Below are positions 10,705 through 46,045 of a stretch of 46,402 nt of DNA, in pieces; positions within the stretch are counted from its first letter, which is position 1, and each line of letters starts with the position of its first letter. Source of the stretch: Blastococcus sp. CCUG 61487 (GTDB lineage Bacteria > Actinomycetota > Actinomycetes > Mycobacteriales > Geodermatophilaceae); the NCBI RefSeq assembly GCF_005222955.1, contig NZ_LWUA01000254.1, positions 1 through 46,402 on the forward strand, in the 5' to 3' direction. The notes under the pieces are model-generated. The model was not told where the DNA came from, searched no databases, and saw only the letters and a list, made by a program, of their open reading frames with translations. The translations under genes were made by a program, and so were the position numbers.

Positions 10705-10709
10705 GCTGC

Positions 10710-10747: not shown

Positions 10748-10879
10748 CGTCGGTCCAGGGGACTGCGCTCCCTCGACCGATTTCCCATTGCCGGCGGGCG
10801 CGGGAGGCGGCGGCGGCTCTACCGTCGCACCGGTGGGGGGGCTCCGGTGCCGGGTCCCGGGGGCGAGCGGGGCCGCGAC

Positions 10880-11651: not shown

Positions 11652-11693
11652 GAGGTCAGTCTGCCCGCCCGCGCCGCACCTCCCCGCACGTGC

Positions 11694-13145: not shown

Positions 13146-13281
13146 GCGGTGATCCTCGTCTCTGGGGGGCTTGTTCCGCCTAGGCCTACCCCACGAGTGC
13201 CCGGCTGTCACGGGGCGGCCCGCTGTCAGCGGGCGCACCTACAGGGCGAGAGGTCAGCCGAACCTGTGCCAGGAGGCGCCC

Positions 13282-13821: not shown

Positions 13822-13904
13822 TCGCCCGTCCGTCATCGCCCGGCGAGGGCCCCGGCGTCATGGCAGGGTTCTGGGGGACGCGGAACCCGGCGGTGGAGGA
13901 TCGG

Positions 13905-14711
13905 ATGCCCGATCAGGCGATCGAGAGCCAAGCGCGGGAGACCGATGTCAGCGGCGTGCGGGTGCTGCTGACCGGCGGCACCAGCGGGCTGGGGCTGGGC
14001 ATGGTGCGGGCTCTGGTGGCCGATGGGGCCTCAGTGGTCCTGACCGGCCGGGACGCCGACCGCGCGCGCCGGGTCGCCGAGCAGGAGACTGCCGCCGGGC
14101 CCGGATCGGCGACCGGAATTGCGATGGACGTGCGGGACGAGGCCTCCGTCGCCGATGGCGTGGCGGCGGCGCGCGCTGCCCTGGGTGGCATCGACGTCCT
14201 GGTGAACAACGCCGGCATCGGCATGCGGACTGTCAATCCGCGGTTCCTGACCGAGCCGCGACGGTTCTACGAGGTCGCCCCGGCGGGCTTCGCCGACCTC
14301 ATTGCCACCAACGTCACCGGCTACTTCCTGGTGGCCCGCGCGGTCGTACCCGACATGGTCGCGGCGGGACACGGCACCGTGGTCAACGTCAGCATCAACG
14401 AGGAGACGATGCGTCGCCGAGGGTTCGTGCCCTACGGCCCGTCCAGGGCCGCCACCGACGCGATGTCCCGCGTCATGGCCGCCGACCTTGCCGGCACGGG
14501 CGTCCACGTCCACCTGCTGCTGCCCGGTGGCGCCACGGTCACCGGCATGATCCCCGACGACCTGCCGGATGAGGCCCGGGGCGGCCTGCTGGAGCCTGCG
14601 GTGATGGGCCCGGCCATCCGGTGGTTGTGCTCTCCAGCGGCGAGAGAGCACAACGATCTCCGCGTCGTGGCCCGGGAATTCGTCCCGCCGGTGGACACGT
14701 CCCCCGCGTGA
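13905..14711 (+). CDS. SDR family NAD(P)-dependent oxidoreductase
   Basis: A 268-residue short-chain dehydrogenase/reductase, likely interconverting an alcohol and a ketone. The cofactor motif TGGTSGLG is at 23-30, NNAG at 101-104 and Ser163 in VNVSIN. The catalytic pair reads Tyr177-x3-Arg181 (YGPSR) where most SDRs have YxxxK. Acidic/basic residues after beta-2 (LTGRDADR) suggest NADP or mixed use. The ATG at 13905 follows GGAGGA; another ATG at 13860 is in frame without a good Shine-Dalgarno. It is convergent with the esterase/BVMO operon. Confidence 0.85.
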   Translation: MPDQAIESQARETDVSGVRVLLTGGTSGLGLGMVRALVADGASVVLTGRDADRARRVAEQETAAGPGSATGIAMDVRDEASVADGVAAARAALGGIDVLVNNAGIGMRTVNPRFLTEPRRFYEVAPAGFADLIATNVTGYFLVARAVVPDMVAAGHGTVVNVSINEETMRRRGFVPYGPSRAATDAMSRVMAADLAGTGVHVHLLLPGGATVTGMIPDDLPDEARGGLLEPAVMGPAIRWLCSPAAREHNDLRVVAREFVPPVDTSPA

Positions 14712-14746
14712 CCGACCCGCGGTTCGTCGCACCCACGGCTCGAGCG

Positions 14747-14785
14747 CCGGGCAGCCGGCCCCCCCGTGGCGGGTCGGCTGCCCGG
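14747..14785. terminator. Bidirectional hairpin between SDR and esterase genes
   Basis: A perfect 11-bp stem (CCGGGCAGCCG at 14747-14757, CGGCTGCCCGG at 14775-14785) with a 17-base loop, in the gap between convergent genes. Confidence 0.7.
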
Positions 14786-14790
14786 ACCCC

Positions 14791-15726
14791 TCAGCCGCGC
14801 AGCAGCTCGCCGAACCGGGCGCTGCTCTCGTCGATCGCGCTCTGCGCTGCCGGCGAGATGGCGCCCATGTCGAAGAACCCGTGGATCATGCCGCCGTAGC
14901 GACGGACGTCCGCGGCGACGCCCGCGGCACGCAGCGCCTCGCCGTAGGCCTCGCCCTCGTCCCGGAGCGGGTCGAACTCCGCCGTCACGACGACCGCAGG
15001 AGGCAGCCCCGACAGGTCGGCGCCGTGCAGCGGCGACAGTCGGGCGTCCTTGGCGTCGTCCCAGGCGCCTGCGTAGTGGCCGTAGAACCAGTCCATGGTG
15101 TCCTTCTCGAGGAAGTAGCCCTTGGCGTTCTCCACGCGGGAGGGGTACTCCCCCTCCGCGTCCACGGCCGGGTAGATCAGGAACTGGCCGGCCAGCGGCG
15201 TCCCGTCGGCGTGCAGTACCTGCGCCACGACCGCGGCGAGGTTGCCGCCGGCGCTGTCCCCGGCGAGGCCCAGCCGCTGGTCCCCGCCGAACTCGTCGAG
15301 GTGCCCGGCGATCCAGCGGGCGGAGGCCACCGCGTCGTCCGCTGCGGCCGGGAACGGGTGCTCCGGGGCCAGCCGGTAGTCCACGGCCACCACGACGGCG
15401 TTGCTGCCCTTGCAGACGTTGCGCGCCATGTTGTCGTGGGTGTCGAGATCGCCGATGACCCAGCCTCCGCCGTGGAAGAAGATCACCGTGGGGAAAGGGC
15501 CCTCGCCTTCCGGGCGGTAGACGCGCGCCTCGAGGTCACCCTCGGCACCGGGCACCGTCCGGTCCTCACTGCTCCCGACCTGGACGACGTGTTCGGGCGC
15601 CCGGGAGCCGTGGGTGAGCGCGAGGTACTGGGCGCGCCCGGCCTCGGCGCTCCCCTCGTACATGGGCGGCATGCCTGCCTGGTCGATCATGCTGAGGACG
15701 GCGGCGATGTGCGGGTCAACCGGCAC
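14791..15726 (-). CDS. Alpha/beta hydrolase, HSL-type esterase
   Basis: A 311-residue esterase of the hormone-sensitive lipase (type IV) family. It has the oxyanion motif HGGG (85-88), nucleophile Ser158 in GDSAGG, Asp252 in EFDPLRDEG and His282 in MIHGFF. The start is GTG at 15726 after AAGGAGA. It lies 73 bases downstream of the BVMO in the same direction, so the simplest reading is hydrolysis of the ester or lactone the BVMO makes. The HSL fold is the same as that of the fused hydrolase domain at 34053-35.8 kb. Confidence 0.9.
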   Translation of the reverse strand: MPVDPHIAAVLSMIDQAGMPPMYEGSAEAGRAQYLALTHGSRAPEHVVQVGSSEDRTVPGAEGDLEARVYRPEGEGPFPTVIFFHGGGWVIGDLDTHDNMARNVCKGSNAVVVAVDYRLAPEHPFPAAADDAVASARWIAGHLDEFGGDQRLGLAGDSAGGNLAAVVAQVLHADGTPLAGQFLIYPAVDAEGEYPSRVENAKGYFLEKDTMDWFYGHYAGAWDDAKDARLSPLHGADLSGLPPAVVVTAEFDPLRDEGEAYGEALRAAGVAADVRRYGGMIHGFFDMGAISPAAQSAIDESSARFGELLRG

Positions 15727-15799
15727 AGGGTTCTCCTTGTGGGGGACGGCTGGGGACGTGCGGGAAGGGACTCCGGAAGCGGTGCGGCGCGACGGCCGG

Positions 15800-17302
15800 T
15801 CAGCCGTACACCAGCGAGCTGTCGTCGAGGTCGAGCGCAGGCAACGAGTCGCGCTCCTCGGCGTACTCGCGCAGGTGGACCCAGGGCTCCTGGTCCCCCT
15901 GCTTGAACATCAGGTGCATGGTGCGCATGACGTAGCCGGCGTTGAAGTTCTCCGGGTCGCCCCAGGGCCGCAGCTGCATACCGTCGTCCTCCCGGCGCAG
16001 CGTGGGGACGACGGTCGCCACACCCCGCTCCTCCATGTGAGCGAGCAACCGGCAGACGAACTCGCTGACCAGGTCGGCACGCAGGGTCCAGCTGGCGCGG
16101 AAGTACCCGAACACGTAGGCCATGTTGGGAACGCCGCTGATCATCATGCCGCGCCACGTGACCCGCTCGGTGAAGTCGACCGGCTCTCCGTCGACTGTGA
16201 AGGCAACTCCCCCGAACAGGCTCAGGTCGAATCCGGTGGCGGTGACGACGACGTCGGCCTCGATCTCCTCACCCGAGGACGTGCGGATCCCGGTCGCGGT
16301 GAACGTCTCGATGGTGTCGGTGACCACCGATGCCTTGCCCTCCCGGATGGCGGTGAACAGGTCGCCGTCCGGGAGTAGGGCGAGCCGCTGCTGCCACGGC
16401 CGGTAGGTGGGGTTGAAGTGCTTGTCGATGTCGAAGCCTTCGGGTAGCAGCGGACGCATCGATTCGATGATGAAGGCCCGCAGTTCGTCGGGCGCCTCCT
16501 TGGACATCCGGGTGATCTCGTCCCCCTCGGCGATGTACGCGCGCCGGAGGATCTCGTGGGTCCACTCGTCAGGGACGTCCAGGGCGCGGAGTGTGTTCGC
16601 CAGCTCGTGGGTCCTGGGGCGGGCGAAGAAGAACGTCGGCGAGCGCTGCAGCATCGTCACGTGCGCCGCCTCCTGCGCCATGGCCGGCACGAGGGTGGCC
16701 GCGGTGGCTCCGGATCCGATGACGACGACGCGCTTGCCGGCGTAGTCGAGGTCCGCGGGCCACTGCTGCGGGTGCACGACATGACCGCGGAACCGGTCCA
16801 GCCCCTCCCACTGCGGCTGGTGGGGCCGGGAGTGGTCGTAGTAGCCCTGGCACATCCAGAGGAAGTCGGTGGTGAACCGCAGCGACTCGCCGGTGTCCTC
16901 ACGGGTCACCTGCACAGTCCAGCGCTTCTCCTCCGAGGACCAGCTGGCCGCGCTCACCCGGTGCCGGTAGCGGATCCGGTCGCCCAGGTCGTTCTCCTGG
17001 ATGACCTCGTCCAGGTAGGACAGGATCTCGTCCGAGGTGGCGATCGACGCCCCCCGCCAGGGCTTGAACTTGTACCCGAAGGTGAACAGGTCGCTGTCGG
17101 ACCGGACGCCGGGGTAGCGGTGGGTCCACCAGGTGCCGCCTCGGGCGTCCAGCGCGTCGAGGATGACGAAGCTCTTGTCCGGGAACTGCTGCTTCAGGTG
17201 ATAGGCGGCGCCGATCCCGGAGATCCCCGCCCCGACCACGAGCACGTCGACGTGCTGGGTCTCCGCCGCGGTGCCGGTTGCTGCTTCTGCCGTCAAGGTC
17301 AT
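15800..17302 (-). CDS. Baeyer-Villiger monooxygenase (EthA-like flavin monooxygenase)
   Basis: A 500-residue FAD- and NADPH-dependent enzyme inserting oxygen next to a ketone or oxidising a heteroatom. It has an FAD Rossmann GAGISG (24-29), RYPGVRSDS, the exact BVMO fingerprint FxGxxxHxxxW (171-181, FRGHVVHPQQW), the NADPH Rossmann GSGATA (196-201) and VTATGFD near 360. The length matches EthA-type proteins rather than the longer cyclohexanone monooxygenases. It heads an operon with the esterase at 14791 and is divergent from an AraC-type activator 62 bases away. Confidence 0.9.
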   Translation of the reverse strand: MTLTAEAATGTAAETQHVDVLVVGAGISGIGAAYHLKQQFPDKSFVILDALDARGGTWWTHRYPGVRSDSDLFTFGYKFKPWRGASIATSDEILSYLDEVIQENDLGDRIRYRHRVSAASWSSEEKRWTVQVTREDTGESLRFTTDFLWMCQGYYDHSRPHQPQWEGLDRFRGHVVHPQQWPADLDYAGKRVVVIGSGATAATLVPAMAQEAAHVTMLQRSPTFFFARPRTHELANTLRALDVPDEWTHEILRRAYIAEGDEITRMSKEAPDELRAFIIESMRPLLPEGFDIDKHFNPTYRPWQQRLALLPDGDLFTAIREGKASVVTDTIETFTATGIRTSSGEEIEADVVVTATGFDLSLFGGVAFTVDGEPVDFTERVTWRGMMISGVPNMAYVFGYFRASWTLRADLVSEFVCRLLAHMEERGVATVVPTLRREDDGMQLRPWGDPENFNAGYVMRTMHLMFKQGDQEPWVHLREYAEERDSLPALDLDDSSLVYG

Positions 17303-17332
17303 GCTTCATTGCCCATCTGCCTGGTGATGTCG

Positions 17333-17350
17333 GTCACGACGGAAGCTAGC
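17333..17350 (-). promoter_or_regulatory. BVMO promoter element shared with 36684-36701
   Basis: On the minus strand the block reads GCTAGCTTCCG, two bases, GTGAC. TAGCTT fits a -10 box about 40 bases before the ATG. The same 16 of 18 bases occur at the same distance before the BVMO-esterase fusion gene. No -35 box is visible at 16-18 bases, which fits an activator-dependent promoter. Confidence 0.5.
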
Positions 17351-17364
17351 CGTGCGAGGCGGAG

Positions 17365-18471
17365 GTGAGCCATGCCACAATCGGCCGTGAGTTGAGTATT
17401 CCGGCCAACCCCCAACACCCCTTCGACGCGCCCGTCCGCGGCACGGGCAGCGTGGCACTTCTGTGTGGGCTGGCCGTGGAGCACGGCCTCCCCCGCCGTG
17501 ACGTGCTGGCCGGCGGGGGGATACCGGAAGAAGCCCTCGAGGACCCGGCTGCCGAGATCACCGGCGAGCAGGAGATGCGTGCAATCGCTGCCATCGCCGG
17601 CTCGCTGCCCGAGGACGCAGGCCTGACCGCCGGAGCGCGATACCGGCTGGCGAGCTACGGCATCTGGGGCTTCGCCCTGCTCTCGAGCCGCACCCTCCGC
17701 GAGGGGACCGAGGTCGCGATGCGATTCGTGGACCTCACGTACGCGCTGACGCGCGTCAGCGCCCGGGAGGACGACGGCGAGGTCCGGCTGTTCTTCGACG
17801 ACCTGGACGTCCCGGAACACGTCCGGCGCTTCGTCCTGCTCCGCGACAGCTCGGCGGCCCTGCAGCTGTGGCGGGAGACACTGGGGCGCCCTGTCGTGCC
17901 GCTGCGCGTGGCGCTGCGACTGCCGCAGCCCGCCGATCCGACGCCGTACGAGACCGCGTTCGGAGTGCCGCCGCGGTTCGGCGCCGCACGGTCGGTCCTG
18001 GTCTTCGACGCTGCCCTCCTCGACCAGCCGTTGCCGCAGGCAGCCCCCCTGACCGCCGCACTCTGCGAGGCCCAGTGCCGGGACCTCCTCCAGCGCCGCC
18101 ACTCACGGCGAGGGACGAGCGGGCGGGTGCGTGACCTCCTGGTGCACACCGGGGGCCGGATCCTCGGACAGGAGGAGGTCGCCGCGGAGATGCACGTCAG
18201 CGTGCGGACCTTGCGCCGGATGCTCCGCGACGAGGCAACCACGTTCCGCGCGATCGTGGAGCAGACACGTGAACACCTGGCGGAGGAGTTGCTCGTGACC
18301 GCCGGTCTGAACGTCGAGCAGGTCGCTCGACGCCTCGGCTACACGGATGCCTCCACCTTCGTCCATGCCTTCCGGCGGTGGAAGGGAGTCAGCCCCGGCC
18401 GCTGGAGGGAGGGGGAAACCCGGCCGTCCACGAGCGGTGACACGTCCCGGCCTGCGGCCGGGCCGGAGTGA
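17365..18471 (+). CDS. AraC family transcriptional regulator
   Basis: A 368-residue regulator with an N-terminal arabinose-binding-like domain of the PF12625 type (about 35-215: AVEHGLPRRDVLAGGGI, YGIWGFALLSSRTLREG) and a C-terminal double helix-turn-helix (about 265-350: EVAAEMHVSVRTLRRML, EQVARRLGYTDASTFVHAFRRWKG). The GTG at 17365 is the first start in frame and its Shine-Dalgarno is weak. It is divergent from the BVMO/esterase operon, so it probably activates that operon in response to a substrate. Confidence 0.9.
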   Translation: MSHATIGRELSIPANPQHPFDAPVRGTGSVALLCGLAVEHGLPRRDVLAGGGIPEEALEDPAAEITGEQEMRAIAAIAGSLPEDAGLTAGARYRLASYGIWGFALLSSRTLREGTEVAMRFVDLTYALTRVSAREDDGEVRLFFDDLDVPEHVRRFVLLRDSSAALQLWRETLGRPVVPLRVALRLPQPADPTPYETAFGVPPRFGAARSVLVFDAALLDQPLPQAAPLTAALCEAQCRDLLQRRHSRRGTSGRVRDLLVHTGGRILGQEEVAAEMHVSVRTLRRMLRDEATTFRAIVEQTREHLAEELLVTAGLNVEQVARRLGYTDASTFVHAFRRWKGVSPGRWREGETRPSTSGDTSRPAAGPE

Positions 18472-18566
18472 CGGCGGCGCGGGCTGAGCTGCGCATCGAA
18501 CCCCGGTGTCGCATCGGAGGGTCGAGAAGCGACGCGCCGGGCCCTCCAGGGCTGCACCGACCCCAG

Positions 18567-18596
18567 GACTGAGCCTTTCCCTGAGGCCGCTCAGTC
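18567..18596. terminator. Hairpin between AraC gene and small membrane protein gene
   Basis: An 8-bp perfect stem (GACTGAGC / GCTCAGTC) with a 14-base loop in the convergent gap. It overlaps the last codons of the minus-strand small protein. Confidence 0.45.
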
Positions 18597-18911
18597 AGAG
18601 GTCTTCGGCGGCCCTGTGCGGTCCCGCTCCGGCCGAACAGCCCGTGGCGGACAGCCGGCCCGCATCCAGGACTCCAGCTCGGCGAACCCCCGCGCCGCCT
18701 CCAGCGCGATCATGACCTGTCGGCGACACGGCCCCTGCCAGGTCGGGGGCCCGGCCGCCAGCCAGTTGGTCAGTACCGCCGGACGCCCTGCCCACGACGT
18801 GCCCATGGCCAGGCCGCCAGTCATGAGGCACCACAGCAGGAACCGCGCCACGGCCCGAAGCCACATCGCAGCGGCCTGGAGATACAGGGTGCCTCTGAGA
18901 TAGCAGTCCAC
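18591..18911 (-). CDS. Small membrane-associated protein, LESW family copy 1
   Basis: About 106 residues from a GTG at 18911 preceded by GGAG; the start is tentative. A hydrophobic stretch (AVARFLLWCLMTGGLAMG) is followed by a polar tail with EAARGFAELESWMRAG. The protein at 21455-21775 has the same length and the matching EAVRGIAALESWLAQA, so the two are paralogues that bracket the MFS/MarR genes. No known family is recognised. Confidence 0.5.
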   Translation of the reverse strand: MDCYLRGTLYLQAAAMWLRAVARFLLWCLMTGGLAMGTSWAGRPAVLTNWLAAGPPTWQGPCRRQVMIALEAARGFAELESWMRAGCPPRAVRPERDRTGPPKTSD

Positions 18912-19152
18912 CGCGCACCCCACTCCGTAGGGGTCCAGCGCCGTCAGGGGGTGAGACAGCACCGCCGGTCGGCGCTTCTCCCGGCGTTGCACGCAGCAAC
19001 CATCGTCGCCCCGTGGCGCCGCAATAGGAAGGGTTTCGGCCCCCGCTGTCCCACGCGACCGGGTGGGGTTGCGACCCGAATGACCCCTCGGGCCTCCGCG
19101 TTTCGGAGGTCGGCGGAGGCGGTCGTGTCGCGGCCGCCGCGGGCGTACAACG
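18912..19152. other. Intergenic stretch with one hairpin
   Basis: About 240 bases downstream of the MFS gene. CCTCCG (19093-19098), five bases, CGGAGG (19104-19109) forms a 6-bp hairpin 44 bases after the MFS stop and may end its transcript. No other feature seen. Confidence 0.35.
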
Positions 19153-20862
19153 CTACGGCCGGGCCTTCGGTGGTTGCGTGCCTGCCGTGCCGTGAGTGTC
19201 GGAATGAGGAGGGCGAGCGACGTCGTCGGTTCCGCGCCGGAGATCGGAGTCCGGAACGACCGCCGTCTCGAAGGCCTCGGCGAGGTCTTCACCGCTTGTC
19301 TGCTCCTGCGGGTGACGGCGCAGCGGGGTCTCCCGCAGGAACAGCAGAACGAGAAAACCGACCAAGGCGAACGGGACGGCGGCGAGGAAGGTGGTCTGCA
19401 GCGCATCGGCGAAGCCTGTGATGACCGCGGTGTACACCGGCTCGGGCAGCGCGCCGATCTCTTCAGGGCTGCCGAGCGTCGGAGCCCCTCCCCCGAGCCT
19501 GTCGGCCGGGACGCCGGCCTCGGCGAGCCGGGACGGGATGGTGTCGGCGAGGCGATGCGTGAGCAGGGCGCCGAACACGGCCACCCCCAGCGCGCCACCG
19601 AGCGAGCGGAAGAACGTGGCACCAGAGGTCGCGACGCCGAGATCTTTCCGCTCCACGGCGTTCTGGGTGGCAAGAACGAGGACCTGCATGACCAGCCCGA
19701 TCCCGGCACCGGTGACGAACATGTACCCCCCGGCCACGACCAGCGAGGTGTCGGCGGCCAGCCGGCTCATGAGTCCCAGCCCGGCGGCGGCCAGCAGCAG
19801 GCCGACGACCGGGAACATCTTGTACCGGCCGGTGGCGGTGATGGCTCGCCCGGACCCGATCGAGGCGCCGAGCAGGCCCACCATCAAGGGGAGCGTGAGC
19901 AGCCCGGAGGCGGTCGGCGACTGCCCCTTGACGATCTGCAGATACTGCGGCAGGAAGACGATCGCCCCGAACATGGCGACGCCGACGACGAAGCCCGCCA
20001 GACTTGTGATGACGAACGTGTGGTTCGCGAACAGGTGCGGCGGCATGATCGGCTCGCGAGCGCGACGCTCCTGCCACACGGCGAGGGCCAGCAGGACGGC
20101 CGCCGCGGCGGCGAGCGCGTAGGTCCACGCGGAGTTCCAGGCGAACTCCTTGCCGCCCAGCGACAGCACCAGCAGCAGAGCGCTGACCGAGCCCACGATG
20201 AAGAACGCGCCCAGCCAGTCGATCGAGCGCTTGCTGCGCGGGAACGGCAGTCGCAGCACCCGCTCGGTGACCAGCAGGGCGGCCACGCCGATCGGGATGC
20301 CTACCCAGAAGGTCCATCGCCAGGACAGGTGCTCGACGAGGAACCCGCCGAGCAAGGGCCCCGCAACGGTGGCAATGCCGAACACCGATCCGATGTAGCC
20401 CTGGTAGCGACCACGCTCCCGCGGACTGACGATGTCGCCGAGGATCGCCTGCGACAACGCCATCAGCCCACCGGCGCCGATGCCCTGGACCGCGCGGAAT
20501 GCAATCAACTGGGCCATGTCCTGGGCGAAGCCACAGGCGAGAGAGGCGAGCAGGAAGATCCCGATGGCGGACTGGAACATGATCTTCCGCCCGTAGAGGT
20601 CGGACAACTTGCCCCAGATCGGCGTGGATGCAGTCGAAGTCAGCAGCGTCGCCGACACCACCCAGGCGAGCTGTTCCTGCCCACCGAGCTCCCCCACGAT
20701 GGTCGGCAACGCCGTCGCCACGATCGTCTGCGACAGCGCCGCGACGAGCATGCCCAGCATGAGGCCGACCAGCACTGTCACGATCTGCCGGTGCCCCAGC
20801 GGCGGCAGACCCTCGCCGCCGGCGGAGTCCGGAGGCGGGTTACGGGGAGCAGGAGAACTCAC
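19153..20862 (-). CDS. MFS multidrug exporter, DHA2 (EmrB/QacA) type
   Basis: A 569-residue, 14-helix drug:proton antiporter. It has the DHA2 N-terminus LMLGMLVAALSQTIVATALP, motif A (GKLSDLYGRK), VQGIGAGGLMAL and motif C (GPLLGGFLVEHLSWRW). A long polar C-terminal tail (about 515-569) is cytoplasmic. The start is GTG at 20862, overlapping the MarR stop by 4 bases. It is regulated and co-translated with the MarR protein and probably exports toxic organics or solvents. It is distinct from the broken MFS gene at 10.9-13.8 kb. Confidence 0.9.
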   Translation of the reverse strand: MSSPAPRNPPPDSAGGEGLPPLGHRQIVTVLVGLMLGMLVAALSQTIVATALPTIVGELGGQEQLAWVVSATLLTSTASTPIWGKLSDLYGRKIMFQSAIGIFLLASLACGFAQDMAQLIAFRAVQGIGAGGLMALSQAILGDIVSPRERGRYQGYIGSVFGIATVAGPLLGGFLVEHLSWRWTFWVGIPIGVAALLVTERVLRLPFPRSKRSIDWLGAFFIVGSVSALLLVLSLGGKEFAWNSAWTYALAAAAAVLLALAVWQERRAREPIMPPHLFANHTFVITSLAGFVVGVAMFGAIVFLPQYLQIVKGQSPTASGLLTLPLMVGLLGASIGSGRAITATGRYKMFPVVGLLLAAAGLGLMSRLAADTSLVVAGGYMFVTGAGIGLVMQVLVLATQNAVERKDLGVATSGATFFRSLGGALGVAVFGALLTHRLADTIPSRLAEAGVPADRLGGGAPTLGSPEEIGALPEPVYTAVITGFADALQTTFLAAVPFALVGFLVLLFLRETPLRRHPQEQTSGEDLAEAFETAVVPDSDLRRGTDDVARPPHSDTHGTAGTQPPKARP

Positions 20863-21380
20863 GCGCGCACGACCTCTTCCGCACGAGTCGTGTCGGCAGG
20901 CTGTCCGCCAGGCGCTGCGTCGCTGGCCAGGCCGTCGAGATCCGCGTTCAACCGTTCCAGCAGCGCCGCGAACATGTCCTGTTCGTCGGTCGGCCAGGAG
21001 CCGACCAGCTCGCGGACGGCATTCCGGCGGAGCTGGCGTGTCTCCGCGACTGCACTCTGCCCGGCGGACGTCAGTCGCAGCCGGCAGGCCCGTCCGTCGT
21101 CCGGATCCGCCTCCCGCGTGGTAAGCCCGGCCTGCTGCAGGGCGGCCACGTGCCGGCTCACCGTCGAGGCGTCGAGGTGCAGGCGGGCCGCCAACGCCCC
21201 GTTGCGCATGGGTCCCGCGTCGTTCAGGAGGCCGAGGATCGTGTACGCGCTCCGGTCCAGCAGCTGTACGGGCCCATCGGTATGAAGCCGGACGCGCTGT
21301 GCTCGGTGGACGAGGTGGGTCAGCGCCTGTTCAATGCGCTCCAGCGACTCGAGGGCAACCCCACCCTGATCCGGTTGCAT
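20859..21380 (-). CDS. MarR family regulator
   Basis: A 173-residue winged-helix repressor. The recognition helix region is NGALAARLHLDASTVSRHVA with wing residues ADPDDGRACRLRLT, followed by a dimerisation helix. It is first in the operon with the MFS exporter. The ATG at 21380 starts about 6 bases after a TATGGT -10 box, so the mRNA may be leaderless. The typical role is autorepression and control of the exporter in response to phenolic or other ligands. Confidence 0.9.
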   Translation of the reverse strand: MQPDQGGVALESLERIEQALTHLVHRAQRVRLHTDGPVQLLDRSAYTILGLLNDAGPMRNGALAARLHLDASTVSRHVAALQQAGLTTREADPDDGRACRLRLTSAGQSAVAETRQLRRNAVRELVGSWPTDEQDMFAALLERLNADLDGLASDAAPGGQPADTTRAEEVVRA

Positions 21381-21386
21381 GTCCCA

Positions 21387-21414
21387 ACCATACTCGGCTG
21401 CTGTACGGCGTCCA
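21387..21414 (-). promoter_or_regulatory. Promoter of marR-MFS operon, possibly leaderless
   Basis: On the minus strand TGGACG (21414-21409), 16 bases, TATGGT (21392-21387), then only 6 bases before the ATG of the MarR gene. No Shine-Dalgarno is present, which agrees with transcription starting at or next to the A of ATG. Confidence 0.45.
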
Positions 21415-21454
21415 GCCGCACAGAGCTGGTCCGCCGCAGCCTCCCCGGCCGCGA

Positions 21455-21775
21455 TCAGGCATCGTCGTCGCCCACCGATCCCGGTGACGCCTGGGCGAGC
21501 CAGGACTCCAAGGCAGCAATACCCCGCACCGCCTCACGGTGCACGACCTGATCGTCGACTCCCGATGGAGGCAAGCTGTCGACGAGCTCGGTCGGCCCGA
21601 GGCGACGGCCGAGCAGGTGTCCGGCGGAGGCGTAGATGCCGTAGCAGGACAAGGCCGCAGCGCCCAGACATGATGCGGCTGCCGCCGTCCATGTGAACAC
21701 GGACAGGGTCTCCTCCAGCAGACGCCAGAGTGCCGCGTCCATCGCTTCCCAGGCCGAGAACGAGACACCGCCCAT
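21455..21775 (-). CDS. Small membrane-associated protein, LESW family copy 2
   Basis: 106 residues from ATG at 21775 (a TTG five codons upstream is also in frame). A hydrophobic segment lies at about 27-53 (TAAAASCLGAAALSCYGIYA), followed by a polar tail with HREAVRGIAALESWLAQA. It has the same length and C-terminal motif as the protein at 18591-18911. It is just upstream of, and in the same direction as, the MarR/MFS operon. Function unknown. Confidence 0.55.
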   Translation of the reverse strand: MGGVSFSAWEAMDAALWRLLEETLSVFTWTAAAASCLGAAALSCYGIYASAGHLLGRRLGPTELVDSLPPSGVDDQVVHREAVRGIAALESWLAQASPGSVGDDDA

Positions 21776-21994
21776 GTCGCCGCCGATCAACCGATGGCGC
21801 CGCGGTCTCCGGGGTCACGGCGCCCAGACGGGAGACAGGCATCCTAATTGACTGAGGGGTCATGACGACCTGTCTCAGTCCCGGCTCGTGGAGGGCGCGG
21901 TGGTCCGCCACCCCCTCACATCTCTCGTCATGGACGGCGGACCCGAGGCGGACGCAGCTGGTGACCCCGCGAGTGGGCTGTTCCGCGGTCCGGC

Positions 21995-22660
21995 TCATCC
22001 GACGGAGAGCATGGCTCCCCGGCGGCGGACTGCCTTGCGGTAGCCGGCGAGCATCTGCTCGGTGATCTCGGTGAGCTCCTCGCGGAGCCAGTCCTCGGTG
22101 ACGTCGGCCGGCGCGGCGAGCAGGGCGCCGGTGAGCGCCTGCAGGGTCGCGCCTCCCCAGACCGCGCCCAGATCGTCCGCCCCGTCCCCCAAGAGCATCG
22201 ACTCCACCTTGCCCCGGAGCCGCGTCGTGAGCTCCAGGACGGCAGGCCGGGACATGGCGGCGGCGTCGCGGACGAGGTAGCCGGCCAGCCTGCGGTGCCG
22301 CAGCAGGTAGTCGACGTATCCCGCCACCTCGATGTCCCGGCTCCGTTGCCGACTCACTCTCGCGCCGTTGATCTCGACCAGTCGGATCAACTCGTCCAGC
22401 GCCGGCCTGACCAGTGCGAGGAGGAGCTCGTCCTTGGTCCGGAAGTGGTAGTAGACGGCAGCCTTGGTGATGCCGAGCCGGTCCGCGATCTCCTGCAACG
22501 AGGTGCCATCGAACCCGTGGGTGGCGAACAGGTCGAGGGCAGCCTCCAGCACGCGCTGCGCTCCAGGAGTGCGCGGAGCCGACGCCGGGCTGAGCGCTTC
22601 CGGCGTCGCGAGCGGTGGGCTGGTCACCACGTGAGAGTAGCCACCCGACCGCATCCTCAT
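21995..22660 (-). CDS. TetR family repressor of the divergent MMPL gene
   Basis: About 221 residues. The helix-turn-helix spans about 45-88 (TSLQEIADRLGITKAAVYYHF), with a TetR_C-type ligand domain after it. The start is uncertain: GTG 22666, ATG 22660, ATG 22654 and GTG 22630 are all possible and none has a good Shine-Dalgarno. It is divergent from the MMPL gene, with two copies of a CTAGCC-N4-GGCTAG operator between them. Confidence 0.88.
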   Translation of the reverse strand: MRMRSGGYSHVVTSPPLATPEALSPASAPRTPGAQRVLEAALDLFATHGFDGTSLQEIADRLGITKAAVYYHFRTKDELLLALVRPALDELIRLVEINGARVSRQRSRDIEVAGYVDYLLRHRRLAGYLVRDAAAMSRPAVLELTTRLRGKVESMLLGDGADDLGAVWGGATLQALTGALLAAPADVTEDWLREELTEITEQMLAGYRKAVRRRGAMLSVG

Positions 22661-22672
22661 AGCCACGGCGGG

Positions 22673-22690
22673 ACTAGCCGTCTGGCTAGT
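22673..22690. promoter_or_regulatory. TetR operator 1
   Basis: ACTAGCC, GTCT, GGCTAGT: a perfect 7-4-7 inverted repeat just before the TetR start region. Confidence 0.65.
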
Positions 22691-22695
22691 AGCCT

Positions 22696-22711
22696 CTAGC
22701 CGATCGGCTGG
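22696..22711. promoter_or_regulatory. TetR operator 2
   Basis: CTAGCC, GATC, GGCTGG: the same motif with one mismatch, centred 22 bases (two helical turns) from operator 1, so both sites face the same side of the DNA. It lies 48 bases before the MMPL start. Confidence 0.6.
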
Positions 22712-22758
22712 TCACTGCTGCCGAGAACCCCACCGCCCTCGACCCCCGGAGCCCGCTC

Positions 22759-24957
22759 GTGGCCGTCTTCCTCCACCGTCTCGGACGCTGGGCCTTCCAC
22801 CGTCGCAAGACAGTCCTCATGGCCTGGGTGCTCGCGCTGGTCGCGCTCGGCGGCCTGGCCGGCGCTGTCGGCAAGGACGCCGACGCGCAGCTCTCCATCC
22901 CCGGCGTCGAGTCGGTCACCGCTCTGGAGACGCTGCAGGAGCGCTTCCCCGACGGTGCGGCGGGTGGCGCCGTCGCCCGCGTCGTCTTCCGAGCGCCCGA
23001 AGGTCGGACGGTCAGCGACCCGGAGATCAGCGCCGCCATCAAGGAGACGCTCGCCAGCGCGGCCGAGGCGGAGCAGGTGATCGAGGTCAGCGACCCCTTC
23101 CAGGATCGCGGCGTCTCCGGGGACCAGACCACCGCCTACGCCACCGTCGTCTACGAGGTGCAGCCCAACAACATCACCGATGAGGCGCGCGCCGACCTCC
23201 TCGACGTGGGGAACGGCGCGCGCGACGCGGGGCTCCAGGTGGAGTTCGGCGGCGAGGCCACACAGGCCGCGCCCGAGCAGGGCATCGCCGAGGCGATCGG
23301 TGTGGTCGTCGCCCTCGTCGTCCTGGCGGTCACCTTCGGCACGCTTCTCGCCGCCGGCCTGCCTCTGCTCTCTGCGCTCATCGGCGTGGCCACCGGCATA
23401 GCCGCGGTGCGGGCTCTCTCGGCCGTCGTCGACATGGACAGCACCACCCCGGTCCTCGGCCTGATGATCGGCCTGGCGGTGGGCATCGACTACGCGCTGT
23501 TCATCATCATCCGGCACAAGGAGCTGCTGGTGGCGGGCACGCCGGCCCGCGAGGCGGCCGGGCGCGCGGTCGGCACCGCCGGCAGCGCGGTGGTGTTCGC
23601 TGGGCTCACCGTCATGATCGCCCTGGCCGGGCTGACCGTCATCGGCATCCCTTTCCTGACCACGATGGGTCTGGTCGCGGCCGGCATGGTGGGCGTGGCG
23701 GTCCTGGTCGCGCTGACGCTGGTGCCGGCCATGCTGGGCTTCGCCGGCGACCGGTTCAGCCGCTGGCCGGTGCCGGGCCTGCGGCGCCGCCAGGCGGCAC
23801 TGGCCACCACGGAGTCGCTGGGCACGCGCTGGGCGCGCTTCGTCACCCGCCGTCCCGTACCCGTCGTCCTCGCCGCCGTCGTGGGCCTCGGCGTCATCGC
23901 CCTGCCTGCCTTGGACCTGCGGTTGGGGTTGCCCACCGACGGCGATCTCTCCGAGGAGGCCACCCAGCGGCAGGCCTATGACCTGCTCGCGGAGGGCTTC
24001 GGGCCCGGCTTCAACGGTCCGCTCAACGTGGTCGTGGATGCCACGGACGCCGAGGCGCCCGACGCCGCCTTCGACGCCACCGCGGAGGCGATCGCCGCGC
24101 TCGACGGAGTTGCGACCACGGCACCGCCGCGGCCGAACCCCGCCGGCGACACCGCCGCGATCACTGTCATCCCGGACGAAGGGCCGTCCGCGGCCGCGAC
24201 GGAGGACCTGGTCAGCGACATCCGCGACCTGCGTCCCGGCCTGACGGAGGAGACCGGCTCCGAACTGGCCGTCACCGGCAACACAGCGCTCGGGATCGAC
24301 ATCTCCGAGAAGCTGGCCGACGCGCTGCCGTTGTTCCTCGCCGTCGTCGTCGGCCTCGCCATGCTGCTCCTGATGGTGGCATTCCGCTCCATCCTGGTGC
24401 CGCTCAAGGCGACCCTGGGCTTCCTCCTGAGCGTGGCGGCCACCTTCGGCGCCCTGGTGGCTGTGTTCCAGTGGGGTTGGCTGGCCGACCTGCTCGGGGT
24501 CGCGTCGACAGGTCCGATCGTGAGCTTCCTGCCCATCCTGCTCATCGGCCTGCTGTTCGGCCTGGCGATGGACTACGAGGTCTTCCTGGTGAGCCGGATG
24601 AGGGAGGAACACGTGCATGGCGCCGAGCCGCGTGAGGCCGTCATCGGCGGGTTCCGTCACGGTGCCCGGGTCGTGACCGCGGCAGCGTTGATCATGGCGT
24701 CGGTGTTCGCGGGATTCGTCCTGGGTCCGGACGCCACCATCAAGAGCATCGGGTTCGCCCTCGCCTTCGGCGTGCTCGTCGACGCCTTCGTCGTCCGGAT
24801 GGCAATCGTCCCGGCGGTCATGACGCTGCTCAGGCGCAGCGCCTGGTACCTGCCGCCCTGGCTGGACCGCGCGCTGCCGAACGTGGACATCGAAGGCTCC
24901 GCCCTCGAACGCCACACCCCGGTGCCGGACCGGGAGCTCGCCGACGTCCGAAGCTGA
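22759..24957 (+). CDS. MMPL family (RND-type) transporter
   Basis: A 732-residue exporter with the same two-block layout as the gene at 120. Signature GIDYALFIIIRHKE starts near residue 240 and LAMDYEVFLVSRMREEH near 601. The start is GTG at 22759. Compared with the first copy it lacks the Pro/Gly-rich insertion in the first periplasmic domain and the long C-terminal tail. Control by the divergent TetR is well supported by the two operators. It probably exports a lipid or hydrophobic compound. Confidence 0.92.
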   Translation: MAVFLHRLGRWAFHRRKTVLMAWVLALVALGGLAGAVGKDADAQLSIPGVESVTALETLQERFPDGAAGGAVARVVFRAPEGRTVSDPEISAAIKETLASAAEAEQVIEVSDPFQDRGVSGDQTTAYATVVYEVQPNNITDEARADLLDVGNGARDAGLQVEFGGEATQAAPEQGIAEAIGVVVALVVLAVTFGTLLAAGLPLLSALIGVATGIAAVRALSAVVDMDSTTPVLGLMIGLAVGIDYALFIIIRHKELLVAGTPAREAAGRAVGTAGSAVVFAGLTVMIALAGLTVIGIPFLTTMGLVAAGMVGVAVLVALTLVPAMLGFAGDRFSRWPVPGLRRRQAALATTESLGTRWARFVTRRPVPVVLAAVVGLGVIALPALDLRLGLPTDGDLSEEATQRQAYDLLAEGFGPGFNGPLNVVVDATDAEAPDAAFDATAEAIAALDGVATTAPPRPNPAGDTAAITVIPDEGPSAAATEDLVSDIRDLRPGLTEETGSELAVTGNTALGIDISEKLADALPLFLAVVVGLAMLLLMVAFRSILVPLKATLGFLLSVAATFGALVAVFQWGWLADLLGVASTGPIVSFLPILLIGLLFGLAMDYEVFLVSRMREEHVHGAEPREAVIGGFRHGARVVTAAALIMASVFAGFVLGPDATIKSIGFALAFGVLVDAFVVRMAIVPAVMTLLRRSAWYLPPWLDRALPNVDIEGSALERHTPVPDRELADVRS

Positions 24958-24989
24958 GGACACCTGCGGCACCAGGCGCGATGCTCAGC

Positions 24990-41369: not shown

Positions 41370-41675
41370 CGGGGTGCCCTCCCTTCACTCTGACTGCGCT
41401 CCAGTGGGCAGCGACTCCGCCTGGCGCTCGTACTTCCGCCGCGTCCGGTGTGAGCCTCGGCACACCCTAGGCATCGCACGGTCCGACGGACAGGCCCGCG
41501 CCGTGGATGGGCCCGCGCGGCAGGACCAGCGGCCGTAGAACTCGTCCCCGACCTCGCCGACGGGGACCCTGTAGAGGGTGGACGGAGGCCGAGTCCGGTG
41601 ATCGGCCAGGGCACCGGACACCGCGCCCCGGCAGCACTGCTCCGGGTGGTGCGCCGCTGACAGCGGGGGCCGAGC
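41370..41675. other. Intergenic stretch, possible small remnant
   Basis: 306 bases between the ligase and the alpha/beta hydrolase, both minus strand. A minus-strand frame (41621-41385) contains PPSTLYRVPVGEVGDEFYG, which looks protein-like but I cannot assign it. Promoter elements for the ligase operon probably lie near 41400-41470; none is clear. Confidence 0.35.
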
Positions 41676-42563
41676 TCAGCGGGCCGCTGCGGTCCAGGAC
41701 GTGAGAAGGGTGCGCAGGGCTGCCACCAACGGCAGCGGCTGGTCGAGCATCGGGTGATGCCCCGCGTCGGGCAGCTCGATCACCGGAACCCCCACGGGCA
41801 GCAACTGTTCCATCCGCACGGCCATCGCCGGCGGGACCAGCCCGAACTCCGACCGGAGGAGTGCTGCCCGGCAGCGCAGTGCGGGCAGCAGTTCCCGCAT
41901 CAACGCGCGCTGGCCGAACATCGCGGGGTCGAACTTCCAGGTCCAGCCACCCTCCACCTCCCGGAGTGACTGCTCCGCGATGTGCCGGGCGACGAAGGGC
42001 AGCATCACGTCCTGGCGCGGCAGCGTGGTGAAGCGGGCCACCGCCTCCTCCAAGGTCGGGTAGATCCGCCGCGGCCGCATCCGGTGGCGGATTCCCTTCT
42101 CCTCCGGGGGCTGGTCGTTCAAGGGCGAGTCGATGATGACGACGCCGGTGAGTCGCTGGCCGTGCTGGACACCTGTGGTCGCCGCCGCCCAGCCGCCCAT
42201 GCTGTGGCCGACCACCACAGGTGGCCGGGTGATCCCACCGGCGGCCGCCGCAGCCATCACCTCGGTGGCCCACAGGGTCATGTCGTAGTGCTCACGGTGA
42301 CCGCTGTCGCCGTGCCCGCTCAGGTCGAGCGCCACCACCCGCTGTTCGCTGGCGAAGAAGGGGGCCACATGGTCCCACCACCCGGAGTGAGCGGCGCCGC
42401 CGTGCACCAGCACCAGGCCCGGGAGCGCCGGGTCCCCCCAGCAGCGGAGGTGGATCGAACAGCCGTCCACGTCCACGTCCACGTGGTCCGGGCGCGAGGC
42501 CAGCGCCGCCGAGAACCAGCGGGGGGTGGTGGCCGTCTCCGGCGACGGATCGTGGTGCTCCAA
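41676..42563 (-). CDS. Alpha/beta hydrolase fold protein (lactonase/C-C hydrolase-like)
   Basis: About 295 residues of the classical alpha/beta hydrolase family, different from the HSL esterases. It has the oxyanion loop VLVHGGAAHSGWW (52-64), DLSGHGDS, Ser121 in GHSMGG and His in LPDAGHHPML near residue 268. I chose TTG at 42563 because GAGGAGG precedes it by 5 bases; further upstream the frame is open but not protein-like. It may act on an ester, lactone or CoA-independent intermediate of the nearby pathway. Confidence 0.85.
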   Translation of the reverse strand: MEHHDPSPETATTPRWFSAALASRPDHVDVDVDGCSIHLRCWGDPALPGLVLVHGGAAHSGWWDHVAPFFASEQRVVALDLSGHGDSGHREHYDMTLWATEVMAAAAAGGITRPPVVVGHSMGGWAAATTGVQHGQRLTGVVIIDSPLNDQPPEEKGIRHRMRPRRIYPTLEEAVARFTTLPRQDVMLPFVARHIAEQSLREVEGGWTWKFDPAMFGQRALMRELLPALRCRAALLRSEFGLVPPAMAVRMEQLLPVGVPVIELPDAGHHPMLDQPLPLVAALRTLLTSWTAAAR

Positions 42564-43059
42564 TGGATCCTCCTCCGATACGCCACGGCAGGCTATCCCC
42601 GCTGATCCGGGCATCCAGCGGCGGGTGCCTCGCTCCGACGACCAGCCGAACTCCGTCAAGCCGAAGGCGCGCACCGGTGAGCAGCGACGCCCGGGTCCGA
42701 TCGAGCAAGGGGCGGCCCCGCCGCCCCGTGGGTCTGGATCGGCGGGGCCTGACCGCTCGAGCCCCCCGGGGGACGTGGCGGATGATCGGGAGCCTCTCGG
42801 GGCGCCAGGTCCTGAGCGCCCCCGGCGCCGGACCGCCGGGCCGCTTGCCGGCACCCCGCGATGCGACGACGGGAAGCTCCCCGGTGCGCACGAGGTCGCG
42901 GCGACGTCACGGACCTTCCCATCGTGACCCACGCCTACAGCGACGTGTTCGCCCGGCTGAAGAGCCGCTCTTCCGGTGGCGGTACAGGGCGTAAGGCACG
43001 TGGAAGGCACGGCTCCCGGCCTACCCCCAGGTTGACCAGGCAAGATGGCGATGAGGGTG
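42564..43059. other. Non-coding stretch left of the partial tRNA
   Basis: About 500 bases. GC-rich frames on both strands are not recognisable as proteins. No integrase or excisionase gene is present here. Confidence 0.5.
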
Positions 43060-43109
43060 TCCAGCCTTCCAAGCTGGCCATGCGGGTTCGATTCCCGTCA
43101 CCCGCTCCA
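43060..43109 (+). tRNA. Partial tRNA-Gly(TCC), 3' part only; probable attachment-site remnant
   Basis: The anticodon arm is perfect (CCAGC, loop CTTCCAA with anticodon TCC, GCTGG), followed by a 4-base variable loop, the T arm (GCGGG, TTCGATT, CCCGT), acceptor strand CACCCGC, T and an encoded CCA. The matching 5' acceptor GCGGGTG and the D arm are missing: upstream sequence (GCGATGAGGG...) does not fit. Integrases commonly recombine within the 3' half of tRNAs and leave exactly such a fragment at the far end of the island. Confidence 0.8.
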
Positions 43110-43341
43110 CGTCTCGACCAGCTCGTGCGCCCGTCCGGTCAGTTCAGCGGGCCTGTGGCGCCGCTCTTGTGCTCAACGGCGGATGACCTCGTCGTCGTAC
43201 CGCTACAGCGCAGCGATCACGGGCCCGCCGACGCACGAGCGGCGCGCCGGGACTCCGCCCATGGCCCGAAGTCCGAGGCGAACTGCGTACACGGGTTGCC
43301 TCGTCGCCTGCTGTCGGACGCTGATTGCCAGCGCACGCCGA
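43110..43341. other. Non-coding stretch right of the partial tRNA
   Basis: 232 bases between the tRNA fragment and the MocR stop codon. Nothing recognised. Confidence 0.4.
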
Positions 43342-44787
43342 TCAGAGCACGGATGGAAGGTGCTGGTCTGCGGGAACTCGGTGGGGAGAGCTCTGAATCT
43401 CGTTCCAGCAGTCGGCAAGAACTGTGATGCCGCGCTCGAGGTCCGGCAGCGGCGCGGTGAAGGGCAGCCGCAGGAAGCGCTCGTGGGAGCCGTCGACGGT
43501 GAACCGCGGGCCGGCGGAGATCGCCAGGCCACGTGTATGGCACAGCAGTGCGAGCGCGGAGCTGACCGGCCGGTCGAGACCGACCCACAGCGACAGGCCA
43601 CCCTGGACCATCGGGACCTGCCAGGTCGGCAGACGATCCCGCACATGCCTGCACAACGCGTCGCGGTGGGCGCGGAGCTGGGCAGAACGGCGGTTGAGCA
43701 GGTCGGGTAGTGCCTGCATCACCCGGACGCCGACCATCTGCTCCATCTGAGGATTTCCCAGGTCACCAGCCGGGCGCGCCTGGACGAGGCGCTGGATGAT
43801 GCTGCGCTCGGCCCGGACCCAGCCCAGGCGCAGGCCGCCCCAGACCGTCTTGCTGAGCGAACCGACGGTGAGCACTGTAGAACCGGCGCCGGTCATTCGG
43901 TGGCCGTGGCGGGCGAACGGGCCGTCGTCCCAGGGCCGATCGATGGTGAGTTCGGCGGTTGTCTCGTCGACCAGCAGGGTCGTGCCGGCGCGCCGGGCGG
44001 CGGTGAGTACCCGAACGCGATCCTCCGGCAGCATGGATGCTCCGGTCGGGTTGTGAAAGTCCGGCATGAGATAGGCCAGGGCCGGCCGAAGGCGCCCGAG
44101 CAGGTCGATCAAGTGGTCGATGTCCCATCCCTCAGCGGAAACCGGCGTGACGGTGAGCCGGGCGCCGGCGCGGCGCAGCGCTTCGTAGGCGTAGGGGTAG
44201 GTGGGTGACTCGACCAGGGCGTGGTCTCCCCGGTGGAGCAGGGTATGGGCCACCAAGGCTATGGCGTGCTGAGCGCCCAGGGTGATCAGGATCTGGTCGG
44301 GCGCGGTCGGCAGCCCGCGCTCGGTGAAGCGCTGAGCGACAGCCGTACGCAGACCGGGGTTGCCCAGCAGGTCCACTTCTGGCCCGTCCAACGCGGCCAG
44401 GAAGTCCTTGCCCATGCTGGCCACCAGCTCGTCGAGCCCCTCGACCGGCGGAGACAAGGCGTGCGCGAAGTCGACTGCGTGCTGCGAGGCGGCCTCCGCA
44501 TGCGGCAGGGTCGCCACACTCCCGGAGCCGCGGACGCTCACCAGGTGGCCGGTCTCGCGCAACGCCTGGTAGGCCGCAACAACAGTGGTGCGGCTGCGCC
44601 GCAAGGCGGCGGCGATCTCACGCTCGGAGGGCAGCCTGGTCCCTGCTGGAACGCGGCCATCCCTGATCAGAAGGCGTAGACGCTCGGCCAGAGCAACGTA
44701 GGCGTGGCCGTCGCCGTTCCACTCCCCCAGCAGGCCCACCAGCGCGCGGGCGGACAGCCGCGCCCCCCGCTCAACCACCTTGCTCAT
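43342..44787 (-). CDS. MocR/PdxR-type GntR regulator with aminotransferase domain
   Basis: A 481-residue chimera. A GntR winged helix (about 25-95: VPAGTRLPSEREIAAALRRSR) is joined to a fold-type I PLP aminotransferase domain (about 120-465) with NPTGASMLPEDR and the PLP-lysine motif LTVGSLSKTVWGGLRLGW. These regulators sense PLP or amino compounds and control vitamin B6, GABA, taurine or export genes. An inverted repeat overlaps its start codon, which suggests autoregulation and control of the divergent micro-gene. Confidence 0.9.
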   Translation of the reverse strand: MSKVVERGARLSARALVGLLGEWNGDGHAYVALAERLRLLIRDGRVPAGTRLPSEREIAAALRRSRTTVVAAYQALRETGHLVSVRGSGSVATLPHAEAASQHAVDFAHALSPPVEGLDELVASMGKDFLAALDGPEVDLLGNPGLRTAVAQRFTERGLPTAPDQILITLGAQHAIALVAHTLLHRGDHALVESPTYPYAYEALRRAGARLTVTPVSAEGWDIDHLIDLLGRLRPALAYLMPDFHNPTGASMLPEDRVRVLTAARRAGTTLLVDETTAELTIDRPWDDGPFARHGHRMTGAGSTVLTVGSLSKTVWGGLRLGWVRAERSIIQRLVQARPAGDLGNPQMEQMVGVRVMQALPDLLNRRSAQLRAHRDALCRHVRDRLPTWQVPMVQGGLSLWVGLDRPVSSALALLCHTRGLAISAGPRFTVDGSHERFLRLPFTAPLPDLERGITVLADCWNEIQSSPHRVPADQHLPSVL

Positions 44788-45008: not shown

Positions 45009-45141
45009 AAGGGACGTGAAAGACGCTGGACCGCAGGGCTTCTGTCAGGCACCAACTTCGGACGCATGACGGCGCAGGGGTCGGGGGACCAACCCGGGCG
45101 AACGATGGTGACTGCAGTGCAACGGTGGCCAAGGGGCGGCC

Positions 45142-45851
45142 ATGCGCTCGGAACAGGCAAGTGAGCTGCTGCTGGCCGAGACCGCCGCCTCGATCGGCAG
45201 CACGTCCGAGCGCGCGCACGCGATGCTCGAGGTCCTCCGTCGGATCATCCCGTTCGACAGCGCCTTCCTGGCGTTCGCCGACCCGCTGGGCCACGGCTAC
45301 CACTCCCTGGTGAGCGTCGACCTGGACGTGCGGACCGCGGAGTTCCTCGCCGGCCCCCAAGTCGCGCGGGACATCGAGGCCACCGGGACCGATCGGGCAC
45401 GTCCGCCGTTGGGCCCGTCGGACCTGCCCTACCCGGCCGAGGAACTGCCGACCTGGGCCGAGTGCCTGATCCCCTCCGGTATCCACCAGGGGCTGGGCGT
45501 TGCCCTGTTCGCACCCGGGAGGCGGCACGTCGGCCATCTCGCAGGGCTATCCGGCAGCCGGCAGCCTCCGTCTCCGGCCATCCGGCGCCGGCTCGGGCGG
45601 CTGGCGCCGGTGTTCGCGCGCGGAATCGACCCGATGCGTTCCCTGATCGCTGCAGCGCGGCTGGTCCGGGGGGCCACCGCAGCTGTGGTGCTGCGGGGGG
45701 ACGGCGGCTGCCAGGCGCTGCCGGGCATGCCGGTGGATGCGCGGCTCGTGGACCGCTCCCCCGTCCTGGCCGCCGCACGCGAGCGGGTGGCCGACGGGCA
45801 CCTCTACTCCTCGTTCCTCTGGCCGGTGGGTGGCTCACACGCCCCCGCTGG
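45142..45851 (+). pseudogene. LuxR-family regulator, N-terminal part without helix-turn-helix
   Basis: About 235 residues of a GAF-like sensor: AHAMLEVLRRIIPFDSAFLAF, LIPSGIHQGLGVALFAPG and ADGHLYSSFLWPVGG. This N-terminal domain is normally followed by a LuxR helix-turn-helix in related actinobacterial proteins. Here recognisable sequence stops at about 45850 and the frame runs on into noise to 46119 over a pterin dehydratase fragment in another frame. ATG at 45142 after GGGGCGG. Confidence 0.6.
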
Positions 45852-46045
45852 AGCGCCACCGGCCCCTGCGCGACGCCGTCGCGCGCGCCGAGCAGGACAC
45901 GACCCACCATGCGCGGGTCGAGCACCTGCAGGACACGATGACCTTCGAGGTCTGGACGCATTCGCTCGACCGCGTGACCGACATGGACGTCGAGCTGGCC
46001 CGACGGATCGACGCGGCGATCGCCGCCGTCGGATCCCACGGCTGA
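45838..46045 (+). pseudogene. 4a-hydroxytetrahydrobiopterin dehydratase, C-terminal fragment
   Basis: VARAEQDTTHHARVEHL and MTFEVWTHSLDRVTDMDV then ELARRIDAAI fit the last 60 residues of pterin-4a-carbinolamine dehydratase, with the His-His pair and the later WTH histidine of the active site in the correct spacing. No start or N-terminal half is present; it begins at the point where the LuxR-like gene loses its identity. A deletion joining the two genes explains both. Confidence 0.6.

Follow-up and report, generated by a model that had tools for sequence, protein, structure and literature searches.

A half tRNA-Gly gene stands near the right end of a contig from Blastococcus sp. CCUG 61487, and the question raised by this locus is what such a piece marks. 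A first-pass annotation, made from the letters alone, had read it as an integration scar that may mark the right end of a single two-ended catabolic island, with older chromosome following on its right, including genes for a MocR-type regulator, a pterin dehydratase and a DUF2795 protein. Here the window denotes the whole stretch of DNA that was analysed, 46,402 nucleotides, which is the entire contig C254 of its genome (G000; 4.11 Mb in 296 contigs). The other genomes compared and their contigs are likewise given by G and C numbers, and the features discussed below are collected in Table 1.

Table 1. Positions of features in the window, read on the forward strand, and the basis of each assignment.
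Feature	Position	Strand	Basis or remark
Recently shared cargo block	19..24958		MMPL, acyl-CoA ligase, acyl-CoA dehydrogenase, aldehyde dehydrogenase (Pfam)
Same block, further genes	19..24958		Flavin monooxygenase (15800-17302), esterase, MFS, regulators (Pfam)
16.6 kb segment	24959..41535		Counterpart of about 370 bp in G019, G010 and G002
Genes of the segment	24959..41535		Ferredoxin-reductase type protein, P450 (26356-27705), monooxygenase-esterase fusion, acyl-CoA dehydrogenase, acyl-CoA ligase (Pfam)
Last shared cargo piece, alpha/beta hydrolase region	41536..42692		95% to G019:C3:236373-237530
Putative right end (P arm) of the left-hand element	42959..43060	+	Likeness to a scar region of G022:C4
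TGACCAG, candidate integrase arm-type site (P side)	43033..43039	+	Position of ACCAG in other scars; putative function
3' scar of tRNA-Gly(TCC)	43061..43109	+	46/49 to the C48 copy; uncalled as tRNA
Arm right of the core (P' side)	43110..43172	+	GACCAG at 43116-43121; putative element origin
MocR-type regulator (GntR + aminotransferase)	43342..44787	-	Pfam
Truncated second copy of a regulator-like gene	45131..45847	+	99.2% over 717 bp to G000:C253:10499-11215
Pterin-4a-carbinolamine dehydratase, C-terminal half	45872..46015	+	Pfam PF01329, profile 43-90 of 91
DUF2795 protein, cut by the contig end	46097..46402	+	Pfam PF11387

The piece is 49 nt long and is the 3' part of a tRNA-Gly(TCC) gene. 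As the first-pass annotation had described, it comprises the anticodon stem-loop with TCC, the T arm with all five of its pairs, the acceptor 3' strand and CCA, together with the variable loop, and it has neither the acceptor 5' strand nor the D arm; the bases preceding it bear no resemblance to the 5' half of tRNA-Gly. When its own genome was searched, the scar and its flank matched the intact tRNA-Gly(TCC) at C48:1226-1299 on the minus strand (E 6.4e-18), which is the single intact copy found in that genome and lies on a contig separate from C254. The two cores agree at 46 of 49 bases, and a match of this strength excludes chance. The three mismatches consist of a T-stem change on both sides, by which pairing is kept, and one T-loop base. 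The resulting T-arm allele, GCGGG-TTCGATT-CCCGT, is shared by five further scars of the alignment and by the intact G001 tRNA. That G001 gene (C29:142258-142334), the only intact tRNA-Gly(TCC) found there, differs in its 3' half: it carries this second T-arm allele and an altered end of the anticodon stem, as if an element had overwritten the 3' half. ARAGORN calls no tRNA in the window, and no Rfam model matches the window at its gathering score. In a relaxed Rfam search (E up to 10; positions 42900-43300), the sole match listed, two lower ones of the same clan aside, was a 15-nt T-arm match to the tmRNA model (E 0.062).

Pieces of this kind are common in the genus. The 23 genomes of the genus that were compared have one intact tRNA-Gly(TCC) apiece, and 21 of them also contain 3' pieces of the gene, 47 in number; none was found in G005 or G013 at E at most 1e-6. 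The count was taken from the 94 rows listed at that limit after exclusion of 21 full-length paralogous tRNA-Gly rows (81-82%) and two further rows (84%). A 5' half in G016 was counted apart from the 47, and a G007 scar at 1404131, which fell below the E limit of the genus listing, was found in another scan. All 22 pieces that share a contig with the intact gene lie on its strand, 19 of them downstream and three upstream. The upstream scars (G022:C11:177784 and 232471; G007:C1:1567617) lie 100-230 kb from the intact tRNA; the G022 segment that carries two of them is 97.7% identical to the array contig of G015, and a composite segment seems to have moved. Six scars in one orientation stand in G007 between the tRNA and the right flank 176 kb off, and G006 has three, with the flank marker beyond them. 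Four scars are present in the window's own genome, one on C254, one on C17 (scanned over bases 1-5000) and two on C77, and the C17 scar alone is tied to the tRNA-Gly locus. A picture of one island with two ends is thus too simple for this genome. A blastn search with the tRNA-Gly 3' half also matched 635 phage and 175 plasmid records. These fit attachment sites but include annotated tRNA-Gly genes, and they were therefore not used as evidence.

Insertion at the tRNA itself can be seen by comparing relatives. G003 and G012 have 16 kb of DNA in common (97.5-98.3%, with one 1.7 kb insertion), which in G003 continues from base 25 of the intact tRNA. In G012 its start is at a scar, and the intact tRNA stands 21.9 kb upstream of that scar. 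An occupied and an unoccupied state of the exact site are thereby seen for the locus, at a junction other than the window's own; G012 has one extra element exactly in the tRNA, unless G003 has lost one. Likewise, a stretch of 41.7 kb is common to G015 and G022 (97.7%); the match stops one base beyond the CCA of a scar, after which the two genomes differ. The distance from the tRNA to the first shared right-hand block varies widely among eight genomes. It is shortest in G008 and G019 (about 2.5 kb), followed by G010 (3.5 kb), G017 and G013 (13-15 kb) and G021 and G011 (36 kb), and it is longest in G007, at 176 kb.

Integrase genes adjoin two of the cores. In G007 a tyrosine-recombinase gene ends 33 bp ahead of a diverged scar, and in G016 one ends 36 bp ahead of the intact tRNA; the two proteins are 62.5% identical, and both genes adjoin HTH_17 genes, that of G016 also a TraG-like gene. 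Integrases 85-91% identical to that of G007 occur in G002 and on G022:C11. Next to the latter lies the 3' end of a different tRNA-like sequence, and no core was evident downstream of the G002 gene, so this integrase family is not bound to tRNA-Gly alone. Related modules carry TraG-like and M23-peptidase genes in G019, and a VirB11-type ATPase domain (T2SSE) with an integrase in G022:C4. On C254 there is no tyrosine integrase among the 13 PF00589 matches of the genome, and no conjugation gene was found among the 31 ORFs of the window scanned with Pfam; the element may extend past the end of C254. A separate arrangement is seen in G016, where the native tRNA-Gly 5' half is stranded with the conserved left flank (C1:521211-521251) and a complete tRNA-Gly stands 37.5 kb onward beside the integrase (C1:558762-558835). 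It seems that the G016 element came with a 5' half of its own and so moved tRNA-Gly to a new site.

The 5' remnant of G016 ends at tRNA base 38, and 25 of the 47 3' pieces start at bases 24-26 (of 74), which would place the exchange near bases 26-38, in the anticodon stem-loop. Short motifs accompany the core on either side. ACCAG is found 24-26 bases ahead of the core in 20 of 35 aligned scars and is missing from the other 15; base-order shuffles (2000) gave a mean of 0.7 and a maximum of 6, the arm motifs having been chosen from the same sequences that were then scored. On the right, ACC[AG]G stands 7-8 bases past the core in 10 of the 35 scars (counted with no shuffle control). Of the 23 intact copies, 11 have it at +5 to +12, against a mean of 0.5 and a maximum of 3 in shuffled sequences. 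The alignment holds the scars of the DNA retrieved for comparison; a core-like match at 2801 of G015b was dropped because it belongs to another tRNA. The T stem is fully paired in 30 of the 35. Both the left and the right motif are carried by the window scar. Its closest counterpart, 88% identical over 184 bp (window 42959-43140 against G022:C4:62882-63065), is the G022 scar nearest the conserved flank. The core and right arm of the window are 81-84% identical to DNA at the intact tRNAs of G010, G012, G019 and G007. An arm like the window's right arm, though less similar (77% with the core), also follows the G017 scar nearest the flank. In G019, where 2.6 kb separate the intact tRNA from the flank, the arm beside that tRNA shows a likeness as strong as elsewhere. 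Because such arms occur near the flank in G017 and G019, the right arm alone is no proof of an element, and in the window it may be native rather than element DNA.

Together with the shared strand of the scars and the exact insertions at tRNA-Gly(TCC), these data identify the half tRNA as a true scar of mobile DNA inserting in this gene, as first proposed. We suggest the following course of events. Mobile elements of the genus would carry a copy of the tRNA-Gly(TCC) 3' half, and a tyrosine integrase would exchange strands in the anticodon stem-loop, such that the incoming 3' half completes a working tRNA and the old 3' half is displaced to the far end of the insert. Repeated insertion would produce stacked elements with one scar at each join, all in the orientation of the tRNA. 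The catabolic cargo of the window would then be the end of the left element, and the DNA on the right would belong to another, older and partly decayed one. It is thus likely that the window scar is a displaced att half at an internal join of accreted islands and not the edge of the core chromosome.

The DNA on the left of the scar is clearly mobile. The shared cargo block is 98.6% identical over 24,954 bp to G019:C3:211054-236004, and matches G010 at 99.4% over 22,681 bp and at 90.4% over the last 2,278 bp; its part from 6420 to 24958 matches G002 at 98%. Such blocks, 16-18.5 kb long at 98-99%, occur in 3 of 22 other genomes. For the genes on either side of the tRNA locus, identity is 81-85% with G019 and G010, and 78-79% with G002. 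Since the cargo is far more similar than the flanking genes in G019 and G010, it is mobile and was recently transferred. The G019 cargo forms part of a 53-kb stretch that G022 lacks at the corresponding place. The DNA adjoining this stretch on the left matches a conjugative-type module of G022:C4 at 90%; the boundary of the stretch shows no tRNA and no convincing direct repeat. No scar was found beside the near-identical cargo in the G019 or G010 DNA compared, and the cargo can therefore move without a scar. More distant relatives of parts of the cargo (72-86%) are found in G015, G022 and G014, each with a tRNA-Gly scar in the same orientation 0.6-3.5 kb to the right. Given this patchy distribution of mobile cargo and the right-hand scar of its relatives, the proposal that island DNA lies left of the scar holds. 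Among the genes of the 16.6 kb segment, that at 34053-36674 (minus strand) encodes an 873-aa protein with flavin monooxygenase-type domains and an Abhydrolase_3 esterase domain, of which an 83% copy is present on G000:C286.

The place of the array that would hold C254 is a separate matter, since C48, C254 and C17 are unlinked contigs. The scar could be real while C254 lies in the island region of tRNA-Leu(GAG), a possibility that we regard as tentative and that agrees with the internal join in all but location. In G019, G010 and G002, tRNA-Leu(GAG) is followed after about 74-83 kb by the 98-99% cargo, and tRNA-Gly scars follow this tRNA by about 1.6-1.7 kb in G019, G002, G010 and G022. Six of the 35 aligned scars lie in the tRNA-Leu region. 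The two scars on C77 point the same way: C77 had been considered as part of the tRNA-Gly array and was rejected, because it continues the tRNA-Leu(GAG) region. Against a tRNA-Leu location, the G019 and G010 DNA compared has no scar beside the cargo, relatives of the cargo do adjoin scars in G015, G022 and G014, and the G015 contig reaches the right flank of tRNA-Gly. Scars in the tRNA-Leu region and upstream of the tRNA are unexplained by stacking at the tRNA; movement of whole composite segments would explain them. The tRNA-Leu-linked scar has a distinct left arm (L268 of G019:C3, 7737-7785; L269; L270; L272; G000 C77:461-509), and the integrase adjoining it is conserved, the full-length proteins being 92-98% identical. 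C77 also encodes (L043, 4063-8790) an exonuclease-BRCT-Lsr2 protein that matches the PADLOC candidate PDC-S48 (E 3e-131). Its gene adjoins one for an ATPase with weak likeness to NACHT, and the two form a candidate defence pair close to tRNA-Gly scars.

The right side of the window bears on the first-pass proposal that a single catabolic island ends at the scar and older core chromosome follows. The orientation of the scar does put an island on its left, the cargo relatives of G015, G022 and G014 also have a right-hand scar, and the window scar has its closest counterpart in the flank-proximal scar of G022. In the genome of the window itself, however, the conserved flank follows another scar: C17 carries a scar at 135-183 and then the right flank that is conserved genus-wide. 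The right flank of G017 matches C17, and G022:C4 has, past its own scar, 10 kb in common with C17. Blastn found nothing like the right-hand stretch of the window in those loci of relatives with which it was compared, and in a genus-wide search (E up to 1e-30) the regulator piece alone of this side matches, at 77% to G001:C12 and 68% to G003:C10. The MocR-type protein is at most 45% identical to its best same-genus match, and its best near-full-length matches reach 41-46% among all 39 other genomes searched. With its low identity, and with the regulator-like gene and the dehydratase truncated, the assignment of the MocR, pterin dehydratase and DUF2795 genes to the core chromosome is unsupported, and a single island bordering older chromosome is improbable. 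In named genomes the MocR matches are 47-54% identical among the best 80 of 401 matches, and the genera in their titles are mostly Microbacteriaceae. One match, a MocR protein 52% identical to that of the window and like those of actinobacteria, is on a contig titled Vibrio cholerae 35D; the assembly behind it has probably been mislabelled or contaminated. The truncated regulator copy is cut where the truncated pterin dehydratase starts, which suggests that the DNA recombined here recently or was joined in the assembly.

An ordinary decayed tRNA pseudogene or dispersed repeat that no integrase produced would suit those pieces that are diverged and far from the tRNA, but is very improbable in view of the clustering of starts at the anticodon stem, the single strand, the occupied and unoccupied pairs, the preserved T-stem pairing and the integrase genes abutting two cores.

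An internal join of accreted islands, the reading we prefer, makes the window scar a further case of tRNA-targeted islands, a kind already known; no earlier report of this locus was among the matches listed in the open-access literature. In elements related to ICESt1, serial site-specific insertion reportedly gives stacked elements with att sites between them. The stacking here is similar, in other hosts and at another target, with a mechanism proposed from sequence comparison. The closest likeness is to the ssrA islands of Dehalococcoides. Several of these stand in tandem at a single RNA gene, a short repeat of whose 3' end bounds every island; they have metabolic cargo and in some cases no integration module (PMC3146451). 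Tandem islands, 3'-end repeats, metabolic cargo and units without an integrase are seen here too. The Dehalococcoides target is tmRNA, with 20 bp repeats, all within 100 kb downstream, and the integrase DsiB is there compared with Ccr recombinases (PMC3146451). Here, unlike in that account, a repeat of about 50 bp derives from tRNA-Gly(TCC) as the target, the integrases match Phage_integrase (PF00589), and some scars lie at the tRNA-Leu locus or upstream. Islands of the Islander collection are reported to regenerate the tRNA at one end and to leave a displaced fragment at the other, with a tyrosine integrase (PMC4383910). A displaced tRNA 3' fragment is common to both; in contrast to that account, there are several fragments per genome here and no integrase in the unit of the window.

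A broader and more speculative picture is that the anticodon arm of tRNA-Gly(TCC) could serve as a genus-wide modular landing pad. Scar-flanked cargo without an integrase would be moved in trans by the integrase of a resident conjugative element and swapped between the tRNA-Gly array and the tRNA-Leu(GAG) island, and the working 3' half would be overwritten repeatedly by element alleles, as in G001. We consider this doubtful as a whole.

For the annotation of such genomes, the locus is a warning that a tRNA half need not equal the border between island and chromosome, since two stacked islands can meet at such a half. Scars can also index elements that have no integrase and that searches requiring one could miss. 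For the genus itself, the locus is a hot spot at which insertion has been very active, the tRNA and the conserved flank being as much as 176 kb apart. A 25-kb set of genes for a flavin monooxygenase and for acyl-CoA and aldehyde enzymes, with the P450 gene outside this block, has very recently been passed between clearly different genomes.
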